From Candidatus Nomurabacteria bacterium (lineage in GTDB: Bacteria; Patescibacteriota; Saccharimonadia; Saccharimonadales; Saccharimonadaceae), in assembly GCA_031266275.1 (NCBI GenBank), contig JAISBI010000017.1, forward strand, positions 1 to 33,473: a stretch of 33,473 bases of DNA. Direction: 5' to 3'. Positions 6,426 through 18,903 of this stretch are shown here, in pieces. Made by a program: the position numbers and the translations under genes. Each line of letters starts with the position of its first letter. The stretch's first letter is position 1. The notes beneath the pieces are model-generated. The model was not told the origin of the DNA. It worked only from the letters and a program-made list of their open reading frames with translations, and did no database searches.

Positions 6426-7118
6426 ATGCGCGGGCCCGATTCAAGCGACAGATTATATGTGTTAAAAGCGGTTATTTTAATCTCTTGCTTCGTATTGAGT
6501 GGATTGGCGCTCGGAGCGGATCATAAAGCGCACAGCGGTGCCGTTCCAGAGGAAGAATATCATAAAACAGTCCAAAAAGTCGAAGAAGATGAGGGCGGCG
6601 AACCGGAGCCAGCGCCCGAGCCGGAAGCGGTGCCGGCCGAACTGGTCGCGCCCGTCATTCAACGCGCCGCCGCGCCGCCGGTAGCTCAGGCGCTACACAA
6701 CCATCTAGAGATTTCGGCTATCGGTCTCAATGCCAACGTGTCGCCAGTCGCGATTAATGGCAAAGGCGAAATCGACGTGCCGGCGGCTGGCGTCGGGCTG
6801 TGGAACGGTGGCGCTCAGCCGGGAGGTCTGGGCAATGTGTTTCTGGACGGGCATGTTTACGGCGTCTTTCGCAACCTGCACGGACTTGGCGCGGGCCAGA
6901 CCATTCAGCTGACGTGGAACGAGCGTAATTATAATTATCGCGTGGTGTCGAACAGCACTTATTCGCTGGACGAATTGTTGGCCAATGGCGGCGCTTTGTG
7001 GTCGAATATTTTGTATAATGCGCCAAGCGGCAAGGGTTTGACGATTATGACGTGCGCCGGTTCGCCGATGGGCGCGACTTATTCGCACCGCACAGTTGTC
7101 AAAGCAGTGGAAATATAA
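6426..7118 (+). CDS. Sortase (class E/F-like transpeptidase)
   Basis: Membrane-anchored cysteine transpeptidase that links surface proteins to the envelope. Residues about 11-30 form a hydrophobic anchor, then comes an acidic/Pro/Ala-rich linker (EPEPAPEPEAVPAE), then the sortase barrel. The catalytic triad is visible: His in FLDGHVYGVF, Cys in LTIMTCAGSPMG and Arg in SHRTVV. The compact domain of about 130 residues and the GLWNGGAQPG region resemble class F enzymes. Length 230 aa is typical. The start ATG at 6426 lies 10 bp after ybaB with a poor ribosome-binding site, so it probably depends on coupling to ybaB. No LPxTG-type substrate was seen in the window, but the truncated FISUMP protein could carry one beyond the edge. 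Confidence 0.85.
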   Translation: MRGPDSSDRLYVLKAVILISCFVLSGLALGADHKAHSGAVPEEEYHKTVQKVEEDEGGEPEPAPEPEAVPAELVAPVIQRAAAPPVAQALHNHLEISAIGLNANVSPVAINGKGEIDVPAAGVGLWNGGAQPGGLGNVFLDGHVYGVFRNLHGLGAGQTIQLTWNERNYNYRVVSNSTYSLDELLANGGALWSNILYNAPSGKGLTIMTCAGSPMGATYSHRTVVKAVEI

Positions 7119-7126
7119 GGAGGAGT

Positions 7127-7540
7127 ATGGAGAATGAAAACCTAGAAAAAGCAACAGTCAACCACGCCGAGCGAAAAGTCGATATGGGCGGGGCGGCGGC
7201 TAAAAAAGCAGTTTTGGTGGACGATGAAACGGTGACTAAGTTGCGGCGCTATGAAATTCCTGATGACAAGAAAGTGCCATACGAAGAAATTGCGAATACC
7301 TTGAAACATATTCGCAAAGACATCAACGACATGCCGGAAGATATCAAAGATATTTTTGTCAAAAACGGTTTGGGTGTGATTGAGGACGGCAAGATTATTT
7401 ATACTGACGCAGGCGAGCAAAAATTAGTGCAATACATGTTCGACGATAAAAATGATGAATTAAGCTTGGCAGGATTTTTGCAAGACGCCGGCGTGATAAG
7501 GATTAGCGATAACAATTATGTTACCGAGAGCATTGACTAA
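7127..7540 (+). CDS. Unknown acidic protein between sortase and recR
   Basis: A 137-aa soluble, acidic protein that I do not recognise. The start at 7127 is chosen because AAGGAGGAG stands just before it; a longer in-frame reading from 7052 would overlap the sortase gene. The N-terminus is Ala/Lys-rich and looks disordered. The C-terminal two thirds look alpha-helical with a short winged-helix-like pattern (KDIFVKNGLGVIEDGKIIYT, then AGFLQDAGVIRISD). No cysteines or membrane segments. It overlaps recR by 23 bp, so the two are translated together and it may function with RecR or YbaB, but that is only context. Confidence 0.75.
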   Translation: MENENLEKATVNHAERKVDMGGAAAKKAVLVDDETVTKLRRYEIPDDKKVPYEEIANTLKHIRKDINDMPEDIKDIFVKNGLGVIEDGKIIYTDAGEQKLVQYMFDDKNDELSLAGFLQDAGVIRISDNNYVTESID

Positions 7541-8126
7541 TCTCATCGAAAGCTTCGAGCTTTTGCCCGGCGTCGGCGCACGCAGTGCCGAGCGCTATGC
7601 TTACTATGTTTTGAAAAATTCGCCGGCTGACGCCGCGAAATTGGCGCGCAGTTTGGAAGAAATCCACACTGGCGTGAAACTGTGTCCAGTGACATTCGCA
7701 TTCATCGATTCGAACGAGTCGGTTTCGTCGCTCTACGCCGATGAAGATCGTAATAAAAAATTAGTCGCGGTGGTCGAAGACCCATTCGACGTCATCGCGC
7801 TAGAAAAAACTGGACATTTCAAGGGCACATATCATGTTCTAGGCGGCGCGATTTCGCCCATTGACGGCGTCAGTCCGGAGCAGCTGCACATCCCAGAATT
7901 GATTAAACGGCTCAAAAACGACGCGGTGGAAGAAGTGGTCTTAGCGACCAACGCCAGCGTCGAGGGCGAGTCAACCGCGCTATACATCCAAAAGCAATTA
8001 GAGGGCGCGAAACTGGACGACATCAAAATCACGCGACTGGCGCGCGGCCTGCCCATTGGCGTGGATTTGGAATACGCCGACCAAATAACTTTGTCACACG
8101 CTTTGCAGGGCCGGCAGAGATTGTAG
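7518..8126 (+). CDS. recR: Recombination protein RecR with a degenerate zinc finger
   Basis: RecR works with RecO (and RecF) to load RecA on SSB-coated gaps. Present: N-terminal helix-hairpin-helix (LLPGVGARSAERYAYYVL), Toprim domain beginning VVEDPFDVIALE with YHVLGGAISPIDG, and the C-terminal TRLARGLPIGVDLEYADQIT motif. Length 202 aa is standard. The region that normally holds a C4 zinc finger (residues about 50-82) keeps only one cysteine (KLCPVTFAF) and substitutes other residues for the rest, so metal binding is unlikely. This parallels the zinc-less DnaX in the same window. The ATG lies inside the previous gene (23-bp overlap). Confidence 0.93.
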   Translation: MLPRALTNLIESFELLPGVGARSAERYAYYVLKNSPADAAKLARSLEEIHTGVKLCPVTFAFIDSNESVSSLYADEDRNKKLVAVVEDPFDVIALEKTGHFKGTYHVLGGAISPIDGVSPEQLHIPELIKRLKNDAVEEVVLATNASVEGESTALYIQKQLEGAKLDDIKITRLARGLPIGVDLEYADQITLSHALQGRQRL

Positions 8127-8129
8127 ATT

Positions 8130-8157
8130 TTGCTAACTCGCTTCGTCGTGATACAAT
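8130..8157 (+). promoter_or_regulatory. Promoter giving a leaderless pheS (and DGR RT) transcript
   Basis: TTGCTA (8130-8135), 16 bp, TACAAT (8152-8157), then 7 nt to the pheS ATG at 8165, which has no ribosome-binding site. The start of transcription therefore falls at the start codon. The same transcript should read into the overlapping reverse transcriptase gene. Confidence 0.6.
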
Positions 8158-8164
8158 TATAGTT

Positions 8165-9166
8165 ATGGAAATTAAGAAGACTCGAGAATTATTGTTGACA
8201 CGGGCTCGGGAACTAGAAGCGCCGCGCGATATTTTGAAAGCGCCGGAGTTGAAGAAACTTTATCAAGTTTTGTCTGGGCTGCCAGAGGCGGAGCGGCCAG
8301 AATTTGGCCGGAAAATCAATGCTTTACGGGGGGAGTTAGAGAAACTTGTCCAAGTTTTAGAGTCGCAAGTTGAAGAAGCGGCGGTTGAGCCGATTGACGT
8401 GACCGCGCCGATGGGCGTGAACCAACCGAAGCCGACGCTGATGACTTCTGATAATGGCTCGCGGCATCCGTTGATGACGGAGTTGGAAAACGTAGTGCGG
8501 ATTTTTAACCTAATGGGCTTCGACGCGCTGGAATCGCGCCAGCTGGACGATGATTATCATATGTTTACAGCGCTGAATTTTCCGCCCAATCATCCGGCGC
8601 GCGACATGTACGATGCTTTCCATACGGAAGAGGGCTTCATCCCGCCCGGACACACTTCGACCATGCAAAATCGCATTTTGAAAGCTGGCAAGCAGAAATT
8701 AGAATCTGGCGGTCAAATTGCCACGATTAGCTATGGCCGAGTTTTTCGCAACGAAGACCAAGACGCCACGCACGAGCACACGTTTTATCAATGCGAAGGC
8801 GTATTCGTGTCAAAAAACGCCAATTTTGCCCAGTTGACTGGAGTGTTGCTGGAGTTTTTGCAAACTTATTACGACCAAGAATTGAAATACAAAATCCAAC
8901 CCGGCTATTTCCCATTCACCGAACCGAGCATTGAATTCGCCATCGAAAAGCCAGCTTCCATCAACGGCAAAAAAGGCGAGTGGTTGGAGCTAGTGCCAGG
9001 CGGCATGATCCACCCGAACGTCTTGCGCGAAGCTGGAATCGACCCGACCAAATATCGCGGTTTCGCGTGGGGTTTGGGCATTGAGCGCCTTGTGATGCTG
9101 AAATATGGCATCGACGATATTCGGCATTTTGAATCTGGTAGATTGCGGTTCCTGAAGGAATTTTGA
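8165..9166 (+). CDS. pheS: Phenylalanine--tRNA ligase alpha subunit
   Basis: Catalytic subunit that activates phenylalanine and charges tRNA-Phe as part of an (alpha-beta)2 enzyme. The N-terminal about 85 residues form the tRNA-binding coiled coil. The class II core follows: motif 1 around HPLMTELENVVRIFNLMGFD, motif 2 RVFRNEDQDATHEHTFYQCE, and motif 3 GFAWGLGIERLVMLKYGIDD. Length 333 aa is normal and the C-terminus (RLRFLKEF) looks complete. The expected partner pheT does not follow directly: a retroelement starts inside the stop codon and pheT begins 3.8 kb downstream in two pieces. Confidence 0.96.
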   Translation: MEIKKTRELLLTRARELEAPRDILKAPELKKLYQVLSGLPEAERPEFGRKINALRGELEKLVQVLESQVEEAAVEPIDVTAPMGVNQPKPTLMTSDNGSRHPLMTELENVVRIFNLMGFDALESRQLDDDYHMFTALNFPPNHPARDMYDAFHTEEGFIPPGHTSTMQNRILKAGKQKLESGGQIATISYGRVFRNEDQDATHEHTFYQCEGVFVSKNANFAQLTGVLLEFLQTYYDQELKYKIQPGYFPFTEPSIEFAIEKPASINGKKGEWLELVPGGMIHPNVLREAGIDPTKYRGFAWGLGIERLVMLKYGIDDIRHFESGRLRFLKEF

Positions 9167-10122
9167 ATTTAACTTATCAGAGGATTCATGCGGCTTGGCG
9201 GGCCTTTCGAAGTGGCAAACAACTTAGCCCAGCGATTGACGATTTTAGTTATCATTTGACGGCGAATTTGCTGGATTTGACACACCAATTGAACATTGGG
9301 ACTTATCGGCATTCGGCTTATCGTCAAATTAGTGTGCAAGAGAAAAAGCGCCGCGATATTAGTGTGGCGGCAGTGCGAGATCGGGTGGTTCATCGACTGA
9401 TTTATGACGAATTGGTGCGGATTTTCGACGATTCGTTTGACTATGATGTTTGGTCGTGTCGAATTGATAAAGGGTTGCACAAATGCCTCGATCGCACCAA
9501 GAACTTGTTGGGGCGATATCAACGAGCGTATGTTTGGCGGATGGATATCGCCAAATTCTACGATCACGTCGATCACGCAGTGCTGATGAAATGTTCGCGT
9601 CGCCGACTGGATGACCAGCAGCTTTTATGGTTGTGTGAAGAGATTATTAACAGTTTCAGTTTGGCCGATGACCGCCCGCGCGGCATTCCGATTGGTAATT
9701 TGACCAGCCAAGTTTTCTCTAATATTTATCTGAACGAGTTCGATCGTTGGGCCAGGCATCAATCCGGAGCTTTGGCCTATGTGCGCTATGGCGATGATTG
9801 TGTGATTTTTGCGCCTACTCGCCAGGTGGCTCGAGAATTGAGACGTGACGCGACTCTGTTTTTGCACGAAAATCTGCGCTTGGACGTCAATCCGAAAAAC
9901 GACGTCATCGTCCGGTCTGGCGACGGCCTCGATTTTCTTGGTCACCACATAACGTCGGCCGAAATAATCGTCGACCGCCACACTACCGTGGCGGCGCTGA
10001 GCAGCGTTAATTATCGAAACTTAGCTAGCTATAAATCGCTAAAGTTCGATAATCGTATAAAAAGGCGATTTGACCACCAAGTCCTAGACGAAATAACAGA
10101 GGTGATAGGCCCAAAGTATTGA
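9163..10122 (+). CDS. DGR-type reverse transcriptase
   Basis: Reverse transcriptase of a diversity-generating retroelement: it copies the template repeat into mutagenised cDNA that replaces the variable repeat of the target gene. Seen: first catalytic Asp in WRMDIAKFYDHVDH (D128), motif 4 GIPIGNLTSQVFSNIYLNEF (residues 174-193), whose I-G-N-x-x-S-Q signature marks DGR enzymes instead of the QG of group II introns and retrons, and the catalytic box YVRYGDD (206-212). Tyr-Gly-Asp-Asp is less usual than YVDD/YMDD. At 319 aa with no maturase or endonuclease domain it fits the family. The likely start is TTG at 9163, which overlaps the pheS stop as TTGA, with GAAGGA upstream. Expression is thus coupled to an essential synthetase gene. 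Confidence 0.92.
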   Translation: MNLTYQRIHAAWRAFRSGKQLSPAIDDFSYHLTANLLDLTHQLNIGTYRHSAYRQISVQEKKRRDISVAAVRDRVVHRLIYDELVRIFDDSFDYDVWSCRIDKGLHKCLDRTKNLLGRYQRAYVWRMDIAKFYDHVDHAVLMKCSRRRLDDQQLLWLCEEIINSFSLADDRPRGIPIGNLTSQVFSNIYLNEFDRWARHQSGALAYVRYGDDCVIFAPTRQVARELRRDATLFLHENLRLDVNPKNDVIVRSGDGLDFLGHHITSAEIIVDRHTTVAALSSVNYRNLASYKSLKFDNRIKRRFDHQVLDEITEVIGPKY

Positions 10123-10147
10123 CTTTTTTGACAAAGTGTGATACAAT
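10119..10147 (+). promoter_or_regulatory. Promoter of the DGR target gene
   Basis: TTGACT (10119-10124), 17 bp, TACAAT (10142-10147), with AAGTGTG just before the -10. The arrangement (TATTGACTTTTTT...AAGTGTGnTAyAATG) is almost the same as the promoters at 25910 and 28300 that drive the two small-membrane-protein cassettes. The -35 overlaps the last codons of the RT gene. Confidence 0.7.
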
Positions 10148-10154
10148 GATAGTT

Positions 10155-10187
10155 GTGGCAGTAATAAAAACTGCGACGGACCTTTAG
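10155..10187 (+). CDS. Possible leaderless leader peptide before the DGR target
   Basis: A GTG 7 nt after the -10, where transcription should begin, opens an 11-codon frame MAVIKTATDL ending in TAG. If leaderless initiation is used, this peptide would be made at the 5' end of the target-gene mRNA. Similar tiny ORFs start at equivalent places at 11885 and 19214. Function unknown; it may be coincidental. Confidence 0.25.
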   Translation: MAVIKTATDL

Positions 10188-10201
10188 AATTTGGTAAATT
10201 G

Positions 10202-11125
10202 ATGAGTTTGTCTCGTCTTTTTGGCCTGCTTAGAGGGTTCGTATCTGTTTTTGGTGTCAACAAGGTGCTGAATAGGTTGGTAGCCCGAAATGGGCTGGGA
10301 AGGGACGAAGAGATGAAGAAGTTAACAGGAGTTAAAGTCACAGAATGTTCGAATACAAAATCGGATGAATTCCATTTTTCGACCAATGAAAAGATGGCAG
10401 TGAAAACCGGCCAGCTTCCCAATCGAGGAGTGAAAAAAATCGTTCAGGAATTGGTCGACCATACATATTTTATCATTGAAAACAGCGATAAAAATGTGGT
10501 TTTGCCGAGCGACCTGGAAGAGCAGATTCGGTCAAAGGTCGAAGACCAAAATGCCAAAGGCTATAAAGTTCAGTATTTCATGAAGTTTGGCGAGAATATC
10601 ATTTCAACGGCACGCATGATCGAGTTGGCGAACCCTGACTATGTCTATGATCCGCTGTGGACGCCTGGCACTGAGACGGAGAGTTATACTGTCAAGGAAT
10701 TGAACGGCTCGGAAACTGATATTTCGGTGATGGGAATGTTCCTCAATACTGAGGATACCGACTATGATCCGACTCTGTTTTTACTGGACCACCCGTTTGA
10801 CGATAAATATCCGAACGGAAAAATCAGTCAGGTTGACGCTGCCAAGGAGTTTTTGGCGAAATCGATCGATGGACTGGAAATCAAGCAAACCGATCATCGC
10901 GACGTTTTGTCCAGATATATCATGGACAAAAATAACGGGTTGTCACCCAACGATGTGATCCTTGCTCAAGGATGGACGCGAATCCCCCTTGGGCGAAGAT
11001 CTGTTGTTGGCGGCTCGTGCGTTGGTTGCGTGAACTCGGGCGGCGGTCGGCGTGGGCTGGGCGGGTCGGTCGGGCGCGCGGACGACGGCGTTGGCGTCGG
11101 CTTCTCGGCGGGGCTGGCAGATTGA
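10202..11125 (+). CDS. DGR target (variable) protein
   Basis: A 307-aa protein (from ATG 10202; an alternative ATG 10313 would give 270 aa) whose last about 39 codons are the DGR variable repeat. The N-terminal part is unlike anything I recognise: residues about 1-25 are mildly hydrophobic and basic, then a mixed alpha/beta region (VKKIVQELVDHTYFIIENSD, VQYFMKFGENIISTARMI) and acidic segments. No clear signal peptide. The C-terminus reads VGCVNSGGGRRGLGGSVGRA and ends in DDGVGVGFSAGL, the position and spacing expected for the ligand-binding face of a C-type-lectin-like fold. The template version would carry Asn at seven positions of this stretch. Variable residues are now dominated by Gly because 16 of 21 adenine changes are A-to-G. 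The displayed function and ligand are unknown. Confidence 0.8.
   Translation: MSLSRLFGLLRGFVSVFGVNKVLNRLVARNGLGRDEEMKKLTGVKVTECSNTKSDEFHFSTNEKMAVKTGQLPNRGVKKIVQELVDHTYFIIENSDKNVVLPSDLEEQIRSKVEDQNAKGYKVQYFMKFGENIISTARMIELANPDYVYDPLWTPGTETESYTVKELNGSETDISVMGMFLNTEDTDYDPTLFLLDHPFDDKYPNGKISQVDAAKEFLAKSIDGLEIKQTDHRDVLSRYIMDKNNGLSPNDVILAQGWTRIPLGRRSVVGGSCVGCVNSGGGRRGLGGSVGRADDGVGVGFSAGLAD
11000..11116 (+). repeat. DGR variable repeat (VR)
   Basis: Aligns without gaps to 11337-11453 (offset 337). The template copy has 25 adenines here, of which 21 differ in VR (16 to G, 4 to T, 1 to C). Of 92 non-adenine positions only 3 differ, all T-to-G. The 3' end shares 22 identical bases beginning CGTTGGCG and ending CTCGGC, which fits the initiation-of-mutagenic-homing segment. 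VR lies at the very end of the target ORF, 7 bp before the stop codon. Confidence 0.93.
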
Positions 11126-11154
11126 GCTTTAGTCTTTTGATTTTCTTTTCTTTT

Positions 11155-11179
11155 AACCTTTTGCTACAATAAAAAGGTT
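11155..11179 (+). other. Stem-loop just downstream of the variable repeat
   Basis: AACCTTTT (11155-11162) and AAAAGGTT (11172-11179) form an 8-bp stem with a 9-nt loop. DGRs often carry a hairpin or cruciform immediately after VR that helps target recognition. The loop also contains TACAAT (11165-11170), a possible -10 element for the template RNA, but no convincing -35 is present. Confidence 0.45.
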
Positions 11180-11291
11180 CGATTACTGCATAGATTGATG
11201 CTTGTGTTTGACATTGAAACATCACATCCGGTAATCAAACTAAAAGAAAATTATTGCCCCGCGTGTGCTTGCATTAAGGTGACCGAAACAG

Positions 11292-11313
11292 CGATGTGTT
11301 CGTGAACACATCG
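11292..11313 (+). other. Perfect hairpin 24 bp upstream of the template repeat
   Basis: CGATGTGTTC (11292-11301) and GAACACATCG (11304-11313) are exact reverse complements separated by GT. The stem is long for an unplanned palindrome and lies inside the DGR template RNA, so it may be a protein-binding or RNA-stability element. Confidence 0.6.
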
Positions 11314-11336
11314 ACTCTGGACGATGCAAGATACGA

Positions 11337-11453
11337 ACTGTTGATGGCGACTCGTACGTTGGTTGCGTGAACTCGAACGACGGTCAGCTTAGGCTGAACA
11401 GGTCGAACGGTAACGCGAACGACAACGTTGGCGTCGGCTTCTCGGCTAGGCAG
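11337..11453 (+). repeat. DGR template repeat (TR)
   Basis: Non-coding twin of the variable repeat. Read in the VR frame it contains seven AAC codons and several AGG, GAC and CAG codons, so adenine mutagenesis changes mostly ligand-contact positions without creating stops. It would read LNRSNGNANDNVGVGFSA where VR encodes Gly-rich sequence. Similarity to VR fades upstream of about 11337 and downstream of about 11453. Confidence 0.92.
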
Positions 11454-11475
11454 TTAATTTACCAAAAATGTTAGT

Positions 11476-11505
11476 CCCCACTGGTTTTTAACTGGTGGGG
11501 ATTCT
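11476..11505. terminator. Hairpin between TR and avd, probably a bidirectional terminator
   Basis: CCCCACTGGTT (11476-11486) pairs with AACTGGTGGGG (11490-11500), 11 bp including two G-U pairs, with a TTT loop. It separates the plus-strand template RNA from the convergent avd gene. The T-tract on either side is weak (ATTCTCT on plus, a later TTTTT on minus). Confidence 0.6.
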
Positions 11506-11508
11506 CTA

Positions 11509-11847
11509 TTATTGTGCACTTTTCAGCCAGCCACCGATCTGACGAGAAACCTCATGATTTTTGGCTAATAATTGATTTACGGTCGTAGCGTTGGCCAGTT
11601 TTTGTTCCAGCAAAGTCTGCAGATGAAAATCGATAATCTCCGCCGTGGCGACGGCCTTTATTAAATAGATCGCCTTGTGGGCTTTGGGCGCGTTCTTAGA
11701 CATAATCAGCCACTCCAACAGTTGTAAAACTGCATCCTCAAGTCGCCGACCAATAGTCTGACGCTTGACCCCAGCCAGCTTTTCGGTGACGATACAAATC
11801 GCACCATACAATTCGTGCACTCGTAGAATAACAGGTAAATCAGTCAT
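11509..11847 (-). CDS. avd: Avd-like DGR accessory protein (four-helix bundle)
   Basis: A 112-aa all-helical protein. It resembles the accessory variability determinant of DGRs and the related 23S rRNA intervening-sequence family: basic patch KRQTIGRRLEDAVLQLLEWL, helix-rich middle, and the characteristic end VSRQIGGWLKSAQ. Avd forms a basic pentameric barrel that binds the RT and the template RNA and is required for mutagenic homing in known systems. Here it lies convergent to the RT and target gene with its own promoter, while in the Bordetella phage DGR it lies between target and TR on the same strand. Opposite orientation would let its level be set separately. Confidence 0.85.
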   Translation of the reverse strand: MTDLPVILRVHELYGAICIVTEKLAGVKRQTIGRRLEDAVLQLLEWLIMSKNAPKAHKAIYLIKAVATAEIIDFHLQTLLEQKLANATTVNQLLAKNHEVSRQIGGWLKSAQ

Positions 11848-12240: not shown

Positions 12241-12972
12241 ATGACTCGCGAAATTCATAAGAAATTGTCGAAAAAGTATTTTGATTTGATTGCCAGCGGG
12301 CAGAAGACTTTTGAGCTGCGGGTGGCGGATTTTGAATGCGAGACGGGTGATGTTTTGGTTTTGGATGAGTACGAGTATGAAAATGACGAGGACACTTTGG
12401 CGCGACGGCCAACGGGGCGAAGTTTGCGAAAGAAAGTTGGTTATGTCGGTCGGACGGAGGAGTTTGCTTGGCTGAAACGACCAGATGTGGCAGCGGATGT
12501 GGAGAAATATGGGTTTCAAGTGATTTCTCTGCTGGATGATAAACAGGGTTCATACGATACATTTGAAGTTTCATGTAAAGTTTTGTTAATAAATAAAGCG
12601 AAAGACAAAGTCGTGTTGTTGGAGCATGTTGATGGGCATGTCGGCATACCAGGCGGGCATGTTGAGTATGGCGAGGATCTTGAGCAAACAGCTAGACGCG
12701 AGATAAAAGAAGAGTTGGGGATTGACTATAAAGGTAAATTGACACAAGTAGGGTTTTATACTTATATGAGTCGTCGCGATACGCAGAAGTTCGGATTAGT
12801 GTTCACTGGCGAGCTGGATGAACGAACGAAGTTCACTGTGTTGTCTGGCGATAATCCTGACCAAATAGTAGACCGTAAGTGGGTCGATATGGCAGATATT
12901 ACGAGCGGGAAAAGCACTGTGTACGAACGAGAATTGATTATGAAAGCAGCGGGGAGGAAAAATGATAATTAG
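12241..12972 (+). CDS. DUF3850/ASCH-like domain fused to a Nudix hydrolase
   Basis: A 243-aa two-domain protein. Residues 1-95 look like a DUF3850 or ASCH-type domain (HKKLSKKYFDLIASGQKTFE, LRVADFECETGDVLVLDEY), folds linked to RNA or modified-nucleoside recognition. Residues about 105-240 form a Nudix domain with a complete box: GHVEYG-E-DLEQTAR-REIKEELGI (G-x5-E-x7-REUxEExGU). Nudix enzymes cleave nucleoside diphosphates linked to another group. The fusion suggests recognition plus hydrolysis of a modified nucleotide or RNA end, which is inference. Start at 12241 chosen because GAGGAGG stands 6 nt upstream; an ATG at 12220 would sit before the site. Overlaps pheT-N by 11 bp. Confidence 0.8.
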   Translation: MTREIHKKLSKKYFDLIASGQKTFELRVADFECETGDVLVLDEYEYENDEDTLARRPTGRSLRKKVGYVGRTEEFAWLKRPDVAADVEKYGFQVISLLDDKQGSYDTFEVSCKVLLINKAKDKVVLLEHVDGHVGIPGGHVEYGEDLEQTARREIKEELGIDYKGKLTQVGFYTYMSRRDTQKFGLVFTGELDERTKFTVLSGDNPDQIVDRKWVDMADITSGKSTVYERELIMKAAGRKNDN

Positions 12973-13615
12973 TTTAAATTGGCTAAAAAAATACGTCAAC
13001 ATTGACATTCCGACTGATGAGTTGGTGAAGTTGATTGGGGCTCGGTTGGTGGAGGTGGAGGCTACGAATGATATTAGCGAGAAATATAAGGGGATTACGG
13101 TGGTCGAGGTGCGCGAGTGCGGCAGGATTGAGGGGTCGGATCATTTGAATCGGTGTATGATTTGGGACGGTAAGAATGAGGTCCAGGTGGTTTGCGGCGC
13201 GAATAATGTGAGGGCTGGGATGTTGGCGGCTTGGCTGCCGCCTGGCGCGGTGCCGCCGGAAACTTTTGATAGTGAGCCGTTGGTTCTGGAAAAACGTAAG
13301 CTAATGGGCGTGGAGAGCAATGGGATGTTGGCGTCGATGCGTGAACTTTGTTTGGGTGACGACCATAGTGGGATTGTCGAGATTAATCCGGACGACGCTA
13401 AGGCCGGCGATGATTTCGCGGCGGTTTTTGGTTTGAAGGACGTTTTGCTGGATATTGAAAATAAGTCTTTAACACATCGGCCGGATTGTTTTGGGATTGT
13501 TGGCTTTGCTCGTGAGGTGGCTGGGATTTTGGGGCAGGAATTTGTCGAGCCAAAGTGGCTTAAGAGACCAACTAGAAGTGTTGTAAAAATTACAACAGTG
13601 AAGGTTGGAAAATGA
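12962..13615 (+). CDS. pheT: Phenylalanine--tRNA ligase beta, N-terminal half (split gene)
   Basis: A 217-aa piece covering domains B1 and B2 of PheRS beta: start MIISLNWLKKYVNIDIPTDE, the tRNA-binding OB fold (GITVVEVRECGRIEGSDHLN, VQVVCGANNVRAGMLAAWLP, KLMGVESNGMLASMREL), and the return into B1 (LTHRPDCFGIVGFAREVAGI). The frame then ends with 14 residues (TRSVVKITTVKVGK) that include the palindrome copy at 13580 and do not look like PheT. The natural continuation starts at 17053. Because the break is at a domain junction and both pieces keep good starts, a functional two-piece beta subunit is plausible. GGGAGGA lies before the ATG; the stop overlaps the next gene as ATGA. Confidence 0.88.
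   Translation: MIISLNWLKKYVNIDIPTDELVKLIGARLVEVEATNDISEKYKGITVVEVRECGRIEGSDHLNRCMIWDGKNEVQVVCGANNVRAGMLAAWLPPGAVPPETFDSEPLVLEKRKLMGVESNGMLASMRELCLGDDHSGIVEINPDDAKAGDDFAAVFGLKDVLLDIENKSLTHRPDCFGIVGFAREVAGILGQEFVEPKWLKRPTRSVVKITTVKVGK
13580..13596. repeat. Dispersed palindrome, copy 2 (end of pheT-N)
   Basis: GTTGTAAAAATTACAAC, read in frame as VVKITT. It marks the broken 3' end of the pheT N-terminal piece. With the preceding AGT it shares 20 identical bases with copy 4 at 17695 inside pheT-C. Confidence 0.8.
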
Positions 13616-14118
13616 GTAATTGCCTAGTTATCATTGACGTTCAAAATGGCTTTTTGTATCGCAATACAAAGCACGTTATCAAGCGAATTCAGAAACTTGT
13701 TCAAAATGAGAAATTTGACCATATTGTCGCCACGCGTTTTATCAACCACGACGGTTCGCCGCACGACAAGTTGATTGGTTGGCGAAAAATGATGGACAAA
13801 AAATCGCAGGCTATTCCCGCCGAAATTGCGGAGTTGGCTGAGAAAGTTTTTGATAAAGATGTGTATAGTTGCTTCACGCCTGAGTTTCGCGACTTTGTAA
13901 AAAAAGAAAAAGTTGACACGCTGTATTTTGTCGGAATTGATACTGACTGTTGTGTTTTAAAAAGTGCTGCGGATGCGTTTGAACGCGGGATTACGCCGAT
14001 TGTGGTGAAAAAATGTTGCGCTAGTCACGGTGGTAGGTTGAGCCACTATGCTGCGTTGAAAGTTCTGTCTCGGCTGACTGGGCAGGGTATAATCAAGAAA
14101 CGGAATAGTTATGAGTGA
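13612..14118 (+). CDS. Isochorismatase-family cysteine hydrolase
   Basis: A 168-aa alpha/beta hydrolase of the isochorismatase/nicotinamidase superfamily. The triad positions are visible: Asp in LVIIDVQNGF, Lys near KVFDKDVYSCF, and Cys in VGIDTDCCVLKSAADAFERG. Substrates in the family range from isochorismate to nicotinamide, so the substrate is not assignable; it lacks the His/Asp metal set obvious in nicotinamidases. First cargo gene inserted between the two pheT pieces. It starts in the pheT-N stop (ATGA) and overlaps the RhuM gene by 8 bp, so translation is coupled. Confidence 0.82.
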   Translation: MSNCLVIIDVQNGFLYRNTKHVIKRIQKLVQNEKFDHIVATRFINHDGSPHDKLIGWRKMMDKKSQAIPAEIAELAEKVFDKDVYSCFTPEFRDFVKKEKVDTLYFVGIDTDCCVLKSAADAFERGITPIVVKKCCASHGGRLSHYAALKVLSRLTGQGIIKKRNSYE

Positions 14119-15127
14119 GATTGTAATTTATCAATCATCAGATGGCGTGACTAAGATTGATACAAAGTTGGAGGACGAGACGGTTTGGCTGACACAGCAG
14201 CAGATGGCGGAACTGCTTCAATCTTCGCGGACTAATGTGGTTGAGCATATCGGGCATATTTATGATGAAGGCGAGCTAGATGAGACGGCAACTTGTCGGA
14301 ATTTCCGACAGGTTCGGACAGAGGGGAAGCGTGATGTGGCGCGGGAAATACCTCATTACAACCTCGATATGATTATTTCGCTGGGCTATCGCATCAACTC
14401 GGCGCTGGCGACGCAGTTTCGGCGTTGGGCGACCGAGCGGTTGCGCGAGTATATTACGCAAGGTTTTTCGATGAATGACGAGTTTTTGAAAAATAACGGC
14501 GGCGGGGCTTATTGGAAAAAGTTGCTGGCGCGGATTCGTGATGTGCGTTCTAGCGAGAAGATTATGTATCGTCAGGTGTTGGATTTGTATGCGACGGCGG
14601 TGGATTATAATTCGAAAGCTTTGGAGTCTGTCAAATTTTTCAAGATTGTGCAGAATAAGTTTCATTATGCAATTAACAAACAGACGGCGGCAGAGGTAAT
14701 TTTTGACCGCGCCGATGCCAATAAGGATTTTATGGGTTTGACGGTTTTTGCGGGCGATTTGCCAGTTTTAGAGGAGGTGTGGATTGCTAAAAATTATCTG
14801 TCGGTGGATGAGTTGGAAAAGCTCAATCGGTTGGTGTCGGTGTATTTTGATTTGGCTGAGCTTAGGGCAATTCAGCATGTGCCGATGAAAATGAGTGACT
14901 ATATTGCGGAGCTGGACAAGTTAATGACTGGCTACGGCGAAGGTGTTTTGACTGGCGCAGGTAAAATCAGCCACCAGCGAGCGATGGCGAAAGCTGAGCG
15001 GGAATATCGCAAGTACCAGACGGCGACTTTGAGTGCGCCCGAGCGGGATTATTTGGAGAGTTTGAAATCGATTGAAAAAAAGAATAAGAGTGTTGTAAAA
15101 AATACAACGAAAGGAAGTAAAAAATGA
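14111..15127 (+). CDS. RhuM-family protein
   Basis: A 338-aa protein with the RhuM/virulence-protein pattern: N-terminal IVIYQSSDGVTKIDTKLEDE, TVWLTQQQMAELLQSSRTNV (an HTH/KilA-N-like segment), and YNLDMIISLGYRINSALATQ followed by FRRWATERLREYITQGFSM. RhuM proteins are frequent on genomic islands and near toxin or Fic genes; molecular function is not established. The C-terminal half is helical and ends in a Lys-rich tail that contains the palindrome copy at 15092 (SVVKNTTKGSKK). Presence of this island-type gene inside pheT supports horizontal acquisition. The end overlaps the next gene by ATGA. Confidence 0.85.
   Translation: MSEIVIYQSSDGVTKIDTKLEDETVWLTQQQMAELLQSSRTNVVEHIGHIYDEGELDETATCRNFRQVRTEGKRDVAREIPHYNLDMIISLGYRINSALATQFRRWATERLREYITQGFSMNDEFLKNNGGGAYWKKLLARIRDVRSSEKIMYRQVLDLYATAVDYNSKALESVKFFKIVQNKFHYAINKQTAAEVIFDRADANKDFMGLTVFAGDLPVLEEVWIAKNYLSVDELEKLNRLVSVYFDLAELRAIQHVPMKMSDYIAELDKLMTGYGEGVLTGAGKISHQRAMAKAEREYRKYQTATLSAPERDYLESLKSIEKKNKSVVKNTTKGSKK
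15092..15108. repeat. Dispersed palindrome, copy 3 (end of RhuM gene)
   Basis: GTTGTAAAAAATACAAC, in frame as VVKNTT in the C-terminal tail of the RhuM protein, again preceded by AGT. One core base differs from copies 1, 2 and 4 (A for T). Confidence 0.8.
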
Positions 15128-15588
15128 ACGACGCATTAAAACAGTTTTTATATAAAGCCAACACGCGCGGTTATGGCAGTACCGGTGTGGATGAGGAAAA
15201 ATTGCCAAATGGCGAGCACGTGATTCATTTTTCCGACGATGATTATGAGTTCAAGGACGTTTATTACGGCGGCGAGCCGTATGCTGGGCAGGAGGTGATT
15301 TTTGCGCAGGGCGGCCGAGCGATTTGGGCGATGCAGTATCGCGGTTTTGTCGTGGATGGCGAAGAGCTTGGGCCGATTTATGAATTTTTAGGCAAAGTTT
15401 TGACCGGCACGGAAGTTGGACTGCCGCGCGGCGTGGACGGCTTTGCGGACGGCGACTTTTCCTACGAATTCAAAATGAACGGCGACCTTGACGAGTTTTC
15501 GGCGAATGAGAAAATCCTGCGTGGTGGTAAGGTGGTGTATGCAGCGGACTTTTTGGGCGGATTGGTTGATACGAGGAGAGAGGATTAA
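15124..15588 (+). CDS. DUF5680-like protein
   Basis: A 154-aa soluble protein resembling the DUF5680 domain that is often attached to XRE-type regulators. Recognisable features: N-terminal FLYKANTRGYGSTG, the YEFKDVYYGGEPYAGQEVIF core, IWAMQYRGFVVDGEEL, and a C-terminal YEFKMNGDLDEFSANEKILR with VYAADFLGGLVD. No HTH is present here, so the domain stands alone. Function unknown; ligand sensing is a guess. Starts within the RhuM stop and ends directly at the next ATG with no gap. Confidence 0.65.
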   Translation: MNDALKQFLYKANTRGYGSTGVDEEKLPNGEHVIHFSDDDYEFKDVYYGGEPYAGQEVIFAQGGRAIWAMQYRGFVVDGEELGPIYEFLGKVLTGTEVGLPRGVDGFADGDFSYEFKMNGDLDEFSANEKILRGGKVVYAADFLGGLVDTRRED

Positions 15589-16194
15589 ATGAACAGAAAT
15601 AATACGGCACTCGTTGTCATTGATATCGTCAATAGCACTTGCCACGAAAAATGCGAAACGCCTGAATATGGCATCACGTTTAATAAAATTCGCGAGATGG
15701 TGCCGCGGCTGGCGAAGTTTGTTGATGATTATCGCGATGGTTTTAACAAGAATATTTATTTCGTGAATCTTACGCCTTGGACGAAAGAATATCTGCCCCA
15801 GAATATTCAGAATTTATACGAAAATCCGGATGTGGAATATTATGGCGGCGACAGTTTTGAGGAGGAATTTTATGTGGTTCAGCCGCAAGAGACTGACACT
15901 ATAATTACAAAAAATACTTACGATGCGTTCAGTGTTCCGGAATTTGAAAAAAGTTTGCGCGCCAAGGGGATTCAAAACTTGGTGATTTGCGGCGTGTTCA
16001 CTGACGGTTGCGTGTTGTCAACGATAATTAATGGGTTTAGCCGAGGGTTTGATTTTATTATTTTGAAAGACATAGTGGAGACGACGGATTCGCCGGTGCG
16101 GCAAGAACTACAGACGGCTTTGCTGGAATATACTTTGCCAATGCAATATGGAAAGGTAATGACAGGCGATGAACTATTGGAGGGGCAAAAATGA
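15589..16194 (+). CDS. Second isochorismatase-family hydrolase
   Basis: A 201-aa member of the same superfamily as the 13612 product but clearly a different subfamily. Triad candidates: Asp in ALVVIDIVNSTCH, Lys in IITKNTYDAFSVPEFEKSLR, Cys in VICGVFTDGCVLSTIINGFS. Longer inserts and an acidic segment (VEYYGGDSFEEEF) distinguish it. Substrate unknown. Two such hydrolases in one insertion suggest a small catabolic or detoxifying unit together with the SDR. Its stop overlaps a 30-codon ORF by ATGA. Confidence 0.82.
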   Translation: MNRNNTALVVIDIVNSTCHEKCETPEYGITFNKIREMVPRLAKFVDDYRDGFNKNIYFVNLTPWTKEYLPQNIQNLYENPDVEYYGGDSFEEEFYVVQPQETDTIITKNTYDAFSVPEFEKSLRAKGIQNLVICGVFTDGCVLSTIINGFSRGFDFIILKDIVETTDSPVRQELQTALLEYTLPMQYGKVMTGDELLEGQK

Positions 16195-16283
16195 AAGACG
16201 TTTTAGTAAAAGTCGAGAAGTTGATTGCTGGCGCGCGCGGTCGGTATTATTTTAATTTCGCTTCGGAGGACCTTAAGGTATGA
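16191..16283 (+). CDS. Tiny coupled ORF, possibly a gene remnant
   Basis: Thirty codons, starting MKDVLVKVEKLIAGARG and ending FASEDLKV, with GGAGG 8 nt upstream and an ATGA overlap with the previous gene. The start signals are as good as those of its neighbours, so translation is likely, but the peptide is too short to classify. It may be the N-terminus of a deleted cargo gene. Confidence 0.4.
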   Translation: MKDVLVKVEKLIAGARGRYYFNFASEDLKV

Positions 16284-16304
16284 TAGTAAATGGAAAGGAG
16301 AAAT

Positions 16305-17051
16305 ATGAAATTTCAAGATAAAGTCGCGTTGGTTACTGGGGCGAGTCGCGGCATTGGTCGGGCGACAGCGGAAGAATTCGCAAAAAATGGCGCAAATGTG
16401 GTGATAAATTATCAAAATAGCAAGGAAGTCGCCGAAAAATTTGCTGCTGAATTACAGCAAAAATATGGTGTTCAAGCCGTGGCTATTCAGGCCGATATTT
16501 CTAGCGAAAATGACGTTATGAAAATGCGCGATGAAATTATGGACACGTTCGGAAAGTTGAATATGTTGGTCAATAATGCTGGCGTTGTGGTTGATAAAGA
16601 TTTTTCTGAGCACACAAAAGAAGATTTTCAAAAACTGTTTATGACGAATGTTTACGGCACGTTTTTTGTTAGCAAGGTTTTTGGCGAAATGATAAAAAAC
16701 ACAGTCGGAACTGGAGCGATTGTTAATATATCGTCAACTTCTGGGCTGTTAGATTTTTGGCCTGATAATATAGATTATGCTGCGACCAAAGCGGCAGTCG
16801 CGTCAATGACGCACGATTTGGCAATTCAATTTGCGCCAGATATTCGCGTCAACGCAGTTGCGCCTGGTTGGGCTGATACTGATATGAATAAAGATTTGCC
16901 GGAAGATTTTGTTAATAAAGAGAACGAAAAATACTTACTCAGGCGTATGGGCAAGCCAGAGGAATTGGCTAGGCCGATTGTGTTTTTGGCGAGCGATGAC
17001 GCAAGTTTTGTGAATAGCGCGCTTTTGGTGGTAGATGGGGGACGTTATTAA
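16305..17051 (+). CDS. Short-chain dehydrogenase/reductase, FabG-like
   Basis: A 248-aa Rossmann-fold oxidoreductase. Seen: TGASRGIG cofactor loop, LVNNAGVVVD, IVNISSTSGLLDFW with the active-site Ser, and Y-x3-K in NIDYAATKAAV; the end LLVVDGGRY is typical of FabG-type enzymes. Preference for NADP(H) or NAD(H) is not clear. Because CPR bacteria generally lack fatty-acid synthesis it may act on another carbonyl substrate. Start 16305 is chosen because AAAGGAG precedes it; an in-frame ATG at 16290 would include that site and lies just after a possible TATGAT -10. Last cargo gene before pheT-C. Confidence 0.88.
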   Translation: MKFQDKVALVTGASRGIGRATAEEFAKNGANVVINYQNSKEVAEKFAAELQQKYGVQAVAIQADISSENDVMKMRDEIMDTFGKLNMLVNNAGVVVDKDFSEHTKEDFQKLFMTNVYGTFFVSKVFGEMIKNTVGTGAIVNISSTSGLLDFWPDNIDYAATKAAVASMTHDLAIQFAPDIRVNAVAPGWADTDMNKDLPEDFVNKENEKYLLRRMGKPEELARPIVFLASDDASFVNSALLVVDGGRY

Positions 17052-17052
17052 A

Positions 17053-18903
17053 ATGAATGAAGTGAAATTACAGGTTACGATTAAGGACGCTGGGCTTTGT
17101 CCGCGGTATCAGGCGGTGGTTATGGGGTTGCCTGCGAAGTTGGGGCAGCGGTATTTGGATCCGATGATGGTGGAGATTGCTAAGGCTGGGATGCGGGCGA
17201 TTGATCCGATTGTGGATGTTACGAATTATTTGATGCTGGTGAGCGGTCAGCCGCTTCATGCTTTTGACTATGATAAGTTGGTGAAGGTTGGTGGGCAGGA
17301 CACGGCGCATATTATTGTGCGGGCGGCTAGGGACGGCGAGACGATGACTTTGTTGGACGGCAAGGAAATTGCTATGGGCGAGGGCGATATTGTGATTACT
17401 AGCAATGATGTGCCGGTGGCTTTGGCTGGGGCTATGGGCGGCGCGAATACGGCGATTGACGAGAATACTCGGCGGATTGTTGTCGAGAGCGCGACTTTTA
17501 ACCTTTATAATTTGCGGGGGACGCAGTTTCGGCATGGGATTTTTAGCGAGGCGATTACGCGGTTTACTAAGGGGCAGCCTGTGGGTTTGACGGATTTTGT
17601 GATTCGTGAGTTTATGGCTATGACGGCGGAGAAATATGGGTTGAAGGTGATTTCTGAGGTGGTGGATGCTTATCCGAAGGCTGTTCGGGCTAGTGTTGTA
17701 AAAATTACAACGGAGCAGGTTAATGGATTGTTGGGGACTGGGTTTGGGTTTGATGAGATTGCCACAACGTTGGAAAATGTTGGGTTTAAGGTGAAGTTAG
17801 TGGGCGAAACCCTGAACGTTACTGCTCCTTGGTGGCGGACGGATATTCATATTGCCGAGGATGTGATTGAGGAAGTTGGGCGGTTGAACGGTTATGACGA
17901 AATTCCGACTCAGTTGCCAGAACGTAATTACCGTTCTGTAACGCCAGACGCAATGGGCAATCTGAAGTCGAAAATTCGGCAGATTTTGGCGGCGGCAGGC
18001 GCGAATGAGGTCTTGACTTATTCTTTTGTTAGCGGCGGTCTAATCGAGAAAGCTAACCAAGACCCGAAAGGCGCCTACAAGATTATCAACTCTATTAGTC
18101 CGGAGTTGCAATATGTGCGGCCGAGCTTGACGCCGAGTTTATTGGAGAAAATCTATGAAAACTATCGGGCAGGCGAACGGGATTTTGCTCTATTTGAATT
18201 GAATTCGGTCTATAACAAAGGCGCGATGAGTGAGGACGAGCCGGACTTACCAGCCGATTTTCATCAGCTTGGGCTGGTCGTGAATAGTAAAAATGATAAG
18301 GAAGACGCTTTTTACTTGGCCAAGAGGTATCTAACTGAGTTGCTAGAGCGGCTCGGATATAAGTCGACCATGCGTCCATTTCGCATAGGCGAAACAGAGA
18401 AAGATAAGCGACGCCTAGAACGTGCGATTTATCGGCCATTTGAACCGAAGCGCAGCGCCGAAGTCTACGTAGGCGAGCAATGGGTGGCTAATGTTGGCGA
18501 GTATAAGGCGGATGTGCTCAAAAACTTTAAACTGGCGACGCCGGTTGCTGGGTTTGAGTTAAACCTTGACCACTTACTATTTGATACCGAAAAGCCCGAG
18601 ATTGCGCGGCGGCAGTTGCCGAAGTATCAAGATGTCGAGCGCGATATAACGTTTCGGGTTAGTGGTGAATTAGTGTTTGCGAAGCTCGAGGAGTTGGTCC
18701 GAAAGACGTTAGTCGCGGGAGGGCTTTGGTTTGAGATTGAGCCAGTTTCGATTTATCAAGGTAAAAATCCACAGGCCAAAAACATCAGTTTCCGCCTGAC
18801 GTTCGCGAATTATGAAAAAACCATGACGGGTGCGGAAATCGCCAGTATTATGGACGAAATCGCGGCCGTCGCGAAGAAAGAGCTGAAAGCTGAGGTCATA
18901 TGA
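17053..18903 (+). CDS. pheT: Phenylalanine--tRNA ligase beta, C-terminal part (split gene)
   Basis: A 616-aa piece that begins exactly at the B3 domain: CPRYQAVVMGL, then AIDPIVDVTNYLMLVSGQPL with HAFD. It continues with the B5 domain (ITTEQVNGLLGTGFGFDEIA, VTAPWWRTDIHIAEDVIEEV), the catalytic-like B6/B7 core (VLTYSFVSGGLIEKANQDPK, LRPSLTPSLL-type block) and the C-terminal anticodon-binding B8 domain (LPKYQDVERDITFRV). Together with pheT-N it accounts for a complete beta subunit of normal size. Start 17053 follows GGGGGA; ATG 17035 would overlap the SDR gene. Its own start, correct frame over 616 codons and tight coupling to the cargo argue against a decaying pseudogene. Confidence 0.9.
   Translation: MNEVKLQVTIKDAGLCPRYQAVVMGLPAKLGQRYLDPMMVEIAKAGMRAIDPIVDVTNYLMLVSGQPLHAFDYDKLVKVGGQDTAHIIVRAARDGETMTLLDGKEIAMGEGDIVITSNDVPVALAGAMGGANTAIDENTRRIVVESATFNLYNLRGTQFRHGIFSEAITRFTKGQPVGLTDFVIREFMAMTAEKYGLKVISEVVDAYPKAVRASVVKITTEQVNGLLGTGFGFDEIATTLENVGFKVKLVGETLNVTAPWWRTDIHIAEDVIEEVGRLNGYDEIPTQLPERNYRSVTPDAMGNLKSKIRQILAAAGANEVLTYSFVSGGLIEKANQDPKGAYKIINSISPELQYVRPSLTPSLLEKIYENYRAGERDFALFELNSVYNKGAMSEDEPDLPADFHQLGLVVNSKNDKEDAFYLAKRYLTELLERLGYKSTMRPFRIGETEKDKRRLERAIYRPFEPKRSAEVYVGEQWVANVGEYKADVLKNFKLATPVAGFELNLDHLLFDTEKPEIARRQLPKYQDVERDITFRVSGELVFAKLEELVRKTLVAGGLWFEIEPVSIYQGKNPQAKNISFRLTFANYEKTMTGAEIASIMDEIAAVAKKELKAEVI
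17695..17711. repeat. Dispersed palindrome, copy 4 (inside pheT-C)
   Basis: GTTGTAAAAATTACAAC, in frame as VVKITT at the start of the B5 domain and preceded by AGT. Here the encoded residues fit the PheT alignment, so this copy is tolerated inside an essential protein. Confidence 0.8.

Follow-up and report, generated by a model that had tools for sequence, protein, structure and literature searches.

A complete diversity-generating retroelement behind pheS in a Saccharibacterium, and simple repeats predicted to make mutagenesis phase-variable in its relatives

The diversity-generating retroelement (DGR) described here lies in a 33,473-base stretch of DNA (the window), which is the entire contig C41 of a 792-kb Saccharibacterium genome. 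Its closest described counterparts are the DGR of Bordetella phage BPP-1 and the DGRs of Patescibacteria (candidate phyla radiation, CPR). In the BPP-1 system (bRT-Avd; PDB 8ub7 series), inactivating bRT, Avd or the template repeat (TR) drops repair to about 1e-9 (PMC12875486). The window shares with it the relationship and fold of the reverse transcriptase (RT), the Avd family, adenine-specific changes between the TR and the variable repeat (VR), and the position of the VR at the 3' end of the target gene. It differs in that the RT comes first, avd is convergent and the host is cellular; moreover, the structured spacer of BPP-1 follows the TR (PMC12875486), whereas the conserved RNA structure of the window precedes it. 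Patescibacteria DGRs are assigned by Roux et al. 2021 (PMC8144416) to their clade 2, which the window resembles in host group, cellular setting, adenine bias and the grouping of its RT with Patescibacteria RTs; unlike the DGRs of that clade, the window has a cyclically permuted layout. A third comparison concerns relatives of the window. Like the simple-sequence contingency loci of Haemophilus, Neisseria and Campylobacter, these hold coding repeats, with units of 1, 2, 4 or 5 nt, in or out of frame; unlike at those loci, the genes concerned are mutator parts rather than surface genes, and the window has no such repeat.

Taken together, the sequence, fold and comparative data make it highly likely that the window holds a complete chromosomal Saccharibacterium DGR. 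Simple repeats in its relatives most likely make mutagenesis phase-variable, and the window copy is free of such tracts. The original prediction had claimed a complete DGR from the letters of the window, and all four of its parts (RT, target with a 3' VR, non-coding TR, and avd) lie where it had placed them:

9163 to 10122, + strand: DGR reverse transcriptase, 319 aa (RVT_1 8.4e-15; phrog_1423 2.5e-79; PDB 8ub7 profile 2.3e-43 and first Foldseek match)
10202 to 11125, + strand: target gene, 307 aa from the ATG at 10202, in an open reading frame (ORF) open from a TTG at 10199; its N-terminal part belongs to no known family
10998 to 11114, + strand: variable repeat at the 3' end of the target, from repeat comparison with the TR
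11089 to 11109, + strand: adenine-free 21-nt stretch of the VR, identical to the TR in their alignment; role inferred
11245 to 11340, + strand: conserved RNA hairpin element directly 5' of the TR, from covariation and a covariance model
11335 to 11451, + strand: template repeat, non-coding, between genes, from repeat comparison with the VR
11509 to 11847, - strand: avd, 112 aa, convergent with the TR (bAvd, NF033474 and phrog_3206 matches)

The RT carries the motifs RGIPIGNLTSQ and YGDD. A profile built from 11 of its relatives finds the solved DGR RT 8ub7 first (2.3e-43) and a group II intron RT next (2.6e-33), and Foldseek, given the AlphaFold2 model (pLDDT 89.3), ranks the same entry, titled a DGR RT, first (TM-score 0.78). 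In the RT tree, the window RT groups with Patescibacteria RTs that have TR/VR pairs and avd. Assignment to the DGR type, which a different position in such a tree would have overturned, is thus borne out by sequence, fold and tree alike.

The direction of information transfer can be read from the two repeats. The copies lie at an offset of 337 and are 80% identical across 117 nt, and 20 of their 23 mismatches fall at TR adenines (hypergeometric P 5e-15). Of the 25 adenines in the downstream copy 20 are changed (16 to G, 3 to T, 1 to C), as against none of five in the upstream copy; the downstream copy is therefore the TR and the upstream copy the VR. None of the 67 C or G positions of the TR differs from the VR. 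Read in the frame of the target, the TR has 24 of its 25 adenines at first or second codon positions, with seven AAC codons. The identical stretch at 11089-11109 occupies the place of what we take to be the initiation of mutagenic homology (IMH). No second VR for this TR was found across the 792-kb genome. The same signature recurs in the VRs of 20 loci, including positions 10998-11109 of the window, where 343 of 357 mismatches are at A (A>G 237, A>T 59, A>C 47), a pooled spectrum that leans to clear cases because the repeat finder requires at least 75% of mismatches at A. The excess of G among these changes may reflect RT bias or selection.

The target protein has no family at E<=0.001 in profile library scans, in agreement with the original prediction that its N-terminus is unfamiliar. 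It also has no PDB match, and its predicted model (pLDDT 43.9) is too poor for a fold search. Longer targets occur among the relatives: those of L089, L090 (3662-5626) and L096 (3245-5416) are 655-723 aa long with a common long N-terminal part, for which L090, the one member of that group scanned, gave no Pfam family.

The avd reading frame was likewise claimed from the window and belongs to the family named. It matches the bAvd and Avd models with E-values of 3.2e-5, 1e-5 and 2.4e-5, and all 12 members of its alignment match bAvd, the best at 7.4e-13.

The RNA element before the TR is a property of the wider group. A stretch of about 95 nt abuts the TR in all eight loci that share the window's layout. 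Its outer helix has 8 pairs, which form in every one of 64 cells, and seven of these pairs vary on both sides; when the helix is slid by up to 3 columns, only 38-48% of cells are paired. A covariance model built from the eight loci and run on 77 chosen sources found L100 (8e-13) and L099 (1e-6), both held out and with closely related avd, and, more weakly, L175 (1.5e-5) and L098 (5.5e-4).

The gene order was compared across 164 distinct RT loci remaining after deduplication (111 cellular and 53 viral). These came from family and order searches, from one genome each of 84,980 species (a sample limited to the best 80 of at least 530, which favours unbroken RTs), and from viral contigs; the 111 cellular loci are mostly Patescibacteria by record title where named. 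Layout counts use direct TR/VR pairs with at least 75% of mismatches at A, so that they lean to clear cases and miss inverted pairs. On this basis VR-TR-<avd-RT (< marking the opposite strand) is the commonest Patescibacteria layout (49 cellular, 1 viral), VR-avd-TR-RT occurs in 9 cellular and 44 viral loci, and the window layout RT-VR-TR-<avd in 8 cellular and no viral loci; the other 53 are incomplete or mixed. The window thus departs, as had been noted, from the classic target-avd-TR-RT order on a single strand. The order is not peculiar to the window: the eight loci fall in one 11-row Saccharibacteria group of a quick tree (support 87, not starred), and the layout is a trait of this RT clade, a cyclic permutation of target-TR-<avd-RT. 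It probably arose once. As the one order is the other cut elsewhere, a tandem copy followed by partial loss would be a simple route.

The RT start codon of the window is a TTG within the last 4 nt of pheS, overlapping its stop. In seven of the eight same-layout loci, the window included, the distance between the RT start and the stop of a co-directional ORF is -4 to +11 nt; the ORFs are pheS, recO, obgE, clpP, uvrB, a 38-aa ORF and a 91-aa ORF without family. The eighth, L038, has only a doubtful 44-aa ORF before the RT. In the window, the RT would be translated from the pheS message through coupling at the 4-nt overlap, and its level would perhaps be set by that message; the target may be transcribed from a promoter-like site of its own. 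The TR RNA, with its conserved 5' hairpin, would then be copied by RT and Avd into cDNA mutated at template adenines, and this cDNA would replace the VR of the target, as in the BPP-1 DGR. Of these proposed steps, the adenine-specific outcome is seen directly in the repeats.

Several points weigh against reading the window as a working DGR. Its present activity is a prediction from sequence. A C-type lectin fold for the target was not recovered from its low-confidence model, avd scores under the curated cut-offs of the Avd models, and counts of promoter- and terminator-like sites are close to those of shuffles. The flush RT start says little for coupling, because neighbours in compact genomes often nearly touch. 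Finally, the remaining three of the 23 TR/VR mismatches are T>G, off adenine, and the VR retains just five adenines. These last two features would fit a relic, once active and now silent with a drifting VR, which we regard as unlikely against the open RT and avd frames, the conserved hairpin before the TR and the complete identity at TR C and G positions. Still less can be said for the 117-nt copies being an ordinary duplication beside some other kind of RT. The window RT does match group II intron and DRT models as well; nevertheless, the mismatches on the adenines of one copy only refute this explanation, the best PDB match is a DGR RT, avd is present and the same gene set recurs in eight loci, leaving it next to no credence. 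A group II intron or defence RT was accordingly rejected, the best match in both profile and fold being 8ub7.

The relatives of the window RT add a feature that the window lacks. In several Saccharibacteria loci the RT is broken just before motif 4, at a place corresponding to a loop at residues 165-179 of the window RT model. That the halves, which lie in different frames, are two genes was rejected, as simple repeats sit at most of the breaks. The assembled tracts in this loop are G9, G9, G13 and G13; AGCC x12 and x14; CAAG x8.5; AGAC x16.5 and x17.5; and TCAG x17.75; one more TCAG tract reaches a contig end. Contigs with tracts include PFOA01000081 (CAGT, 71 nt), WQXA01000017 (G13) and JAJDCL010000004 (AGCC x12). 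The break of L041 has G7 only, and that of L091 has no tract. Close relatives carry differing repeat units at the same place, and two RTs of a single genome (G208) carry different units.

Counting of frames was limited to the family and order searches, given the preference of the wider sample for unbroken RTs. Three of the ten assembled loop tracts are in frame (L032, L087, L095) and seven out of frame (L034, L039, L040, L092, L093, L094, L096). Five of the seven out-of-frame loci have TR/VR pairs in reach (L034, L040, L092, L093, L096), with A as the site of 71 of their 72 mismatches, so that these VRs look as if the RT beside them had worked recently. The downstream RT half remains open in six of the seven. 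Between L032 (in frame) and L040 (out of frame), which belong to one genus, downstream dN is 0.12 and dS about 2, giving a ratio of roughly 0.06. Just 4 of 45 pairs allowed an estimate of dS, which exceeds 2 there, so such ratios are rough throughout. The L032 target gene (7033-7812) itself has a G10 tract at its start (MVMIRGGG...), and may also be switched.

Across the whole comparison set, tracts occur in 31 of 111 cellular RT loci, 15 of them in the RT itself and 16 in the 150 nt that precede the RT match, as against none of 53 viral loci. Restricted to loci with avd or TR/VR, the counts are 28 of 97 and 0 of 51 (Fisher P 3e-6, a guide only, as the loci are related). Tract density is 0.290 per kb in the RT plus 150 nt, compared with 0.023 in flanks of up to 3 kb, and loci around the relatives' pheS and pheT have 2 tracts in 217 kb. 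Units are of 1, 2, 4 and 5 nt, the tetra- and pentanucleotide tracts spanning 34-71 nt, and a search for units of 3 or 6 gave none, either in the RT plus 150 nt or in those flanks. Tract thresholds were fixed once the first tracts were known; the strict and the loose setting agree. The tracts 5' of the RT sit at the start of a divergent avd, where most tracts of Patescibacteria other than Saccharibacteria lie. In 14 of 15 such loci with a listed avd its frame is open through the tract, and in only three is there an in-frame start codon before the tract, as expected if many were caught out of frame. In L168 and L173, (AC)n tracts occupy a third position in the RT, some 355 nt from its start.

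In the BPP-1 system the loss of bRT, Avd or the TR each drops repair to that very low level (PMC12875486), and a frame switch in RT or avd would therefore suffice to turn a DGR off. Slippage within the RT loop or the beginning of avd would shift the frame and thereby switch mutagenesis, and tracts in RT or avd most likely make it phase-variable in these relatives. More generally, DGRs of Patescibacteria are probably under a random on/off switch, in which units of 1, 2, 4 or 5 nt at these two places would shift the frame and hypermutation would proceed in only a fraction of cells, the window DGR being a clade member without the switch. The trait was probably gained or lost repeatedly, because a quick tree of 129 RTs (all 111 cellular ones and 18 from the 53 viral loci) requires at least 8 changes for loop tracts and 10 for avd-side tracts, and well-supported branches alone force 3 and 4. 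In the window itself, no frame-shifting simple repeat occurs between 8801 and 12000, even at loose thresholds; by that criterion its DGR is not switched and would always be permitted.

Two observations weigh against a switch: one genome per species was compared, so that tract lengths come from single assemblies, and the out-of-frame RT of L096 is interrupted once more, by a stop 59 codons further along. The latter, with the loss of the second half of L091 and the lower model confidence of the loop in which the tracts sit, could instead indicate decay, in which the repeats are tolerated low-complexity loops, assembly errors or pseudogenes and switch nothing. We consider decay unlikely: it does not account for the enrichment of tracts over flanks, the lack of units of 3 or 6, the two separate favoured places or the adenine-only VRs beside broken RTs, and other lesions are present in just one of the seven out-of-frame genes. 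A somewhat less probable alternative is that the tracts act through ribosomal or transcriptional slippage, giving a low constant level of RT or Avd with the DNA unchanged. G tracts, which are known slippage sites, are among the repeats, and some RT activity is needed to explain adenine-only VRs next to out-of-frame RTs. Tetra- and pentanucleotide repeats, however, typically slip at the DNA level and are unusual as slippery sites, and tracts of this kind are well represented among the relatives; in addition, in-frame and out-of-frame alleles both exist. Phase variation at the DNA level therefore remains the preferred reading of the tracts.

On a word search, the text of Roux et al. 2021 (PMC8144416) makes no mention of tracts; it leaves undecided whether the slower change of cellular DGR targets stems from control of RT activity or from selection. 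No report of simple repeats or phase variation in DGR genes was found by title or abstract start; two large DGR surveys (Paul 2017; one in NAR, probably Wu 2018) lie outside that look and may describe the layout or the tracts. Two papers that use the term phase variation apply it to the phage host, and a Gracilibacteria paper (PMC6851277) has a 9-mer repeat in another gene. DGR regulation in the wild has been called an exciting frontier (PMC12875486). If the proposal is true, simple-repeat tracts in RT and avd are a DGR switch that can be scored from existing reads. The window's own contribution is a clade-specific gene order, an RNA element 5' of the TR and a cassette placed flush behind host genes.

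The surroundings of the window DGR comprise the following features:

8165 to 9166, + strand: pheS, 333 aa (tRNA-synt_2d 1.3e-72; TIGR00468 1.2e-69), its stop codon overlapping the RT start
10119 to 10147, + strand: promoter-like site ahead of the target, TTGACT-17-TACAAT with TG before the second hexamer; weak, equally frequent in shuffles
11473 to 11503, + strand: terminator-like hairpin of 14 pairs, 3' of the TR
12962 to 13615, + strand: N-terminal piece of pheT, 217 aa, 3' of the insert (TIGR00472 5.1e-47, profile positions 1-199 of 798)

The site had been described as lying between pheS and pheT. This holds with a refinement: pheT is itself split in the window, with a second piece of 622 aa at 17035-18903, and the DGR is in front of the first piece. 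In relatives pheT is mostly a single frame of about 780-890 aa, and the split may be a misassembly. Between the two pieces (12962-18903) are two isochorismatase-like genes, RhuM, a DUF5680 protein and a dehydrogenase. Among 18 loci of relatives in which both genes are visible, 13 have pheS and pheT 2-12 nt apart, so that the DGR and two further genes came between them in the window. A fixed insertion site at pheS-pheT was rejected: none of the 25 pheT neighbourhoods of relatives contains RT or avd, and in relatives the same cassette stands flush behind recO, obgE, clpP, uvrB and others.

The genome of the window has a second, unrelated DGR on contig C20 (L042, 6520-8388 and 8590-15801). Its TR (6520-6698) and RT (7279-8388) are accompanied by a 115-aa ORF in the avd position without a Pfam match and by a convergent ORF of 2403 aa, whose repeated segments appear IPT/TIG-like by eye and whose 3' end is a VR inverted relative to the TR. 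In this inverted pair, found by hand, 16 of 16 mismatches are at TR A. Homologues of this VR on contigs C16, C33, C34 and C25 (L319, L320, L322 and L323) have 17 of 39, 12 of 24, 5 of 10 and 5 of 10 mismatches at A, respectively; as their mismatches to the L042 TR are not adenine-specific, they look like ordinary paralogues.

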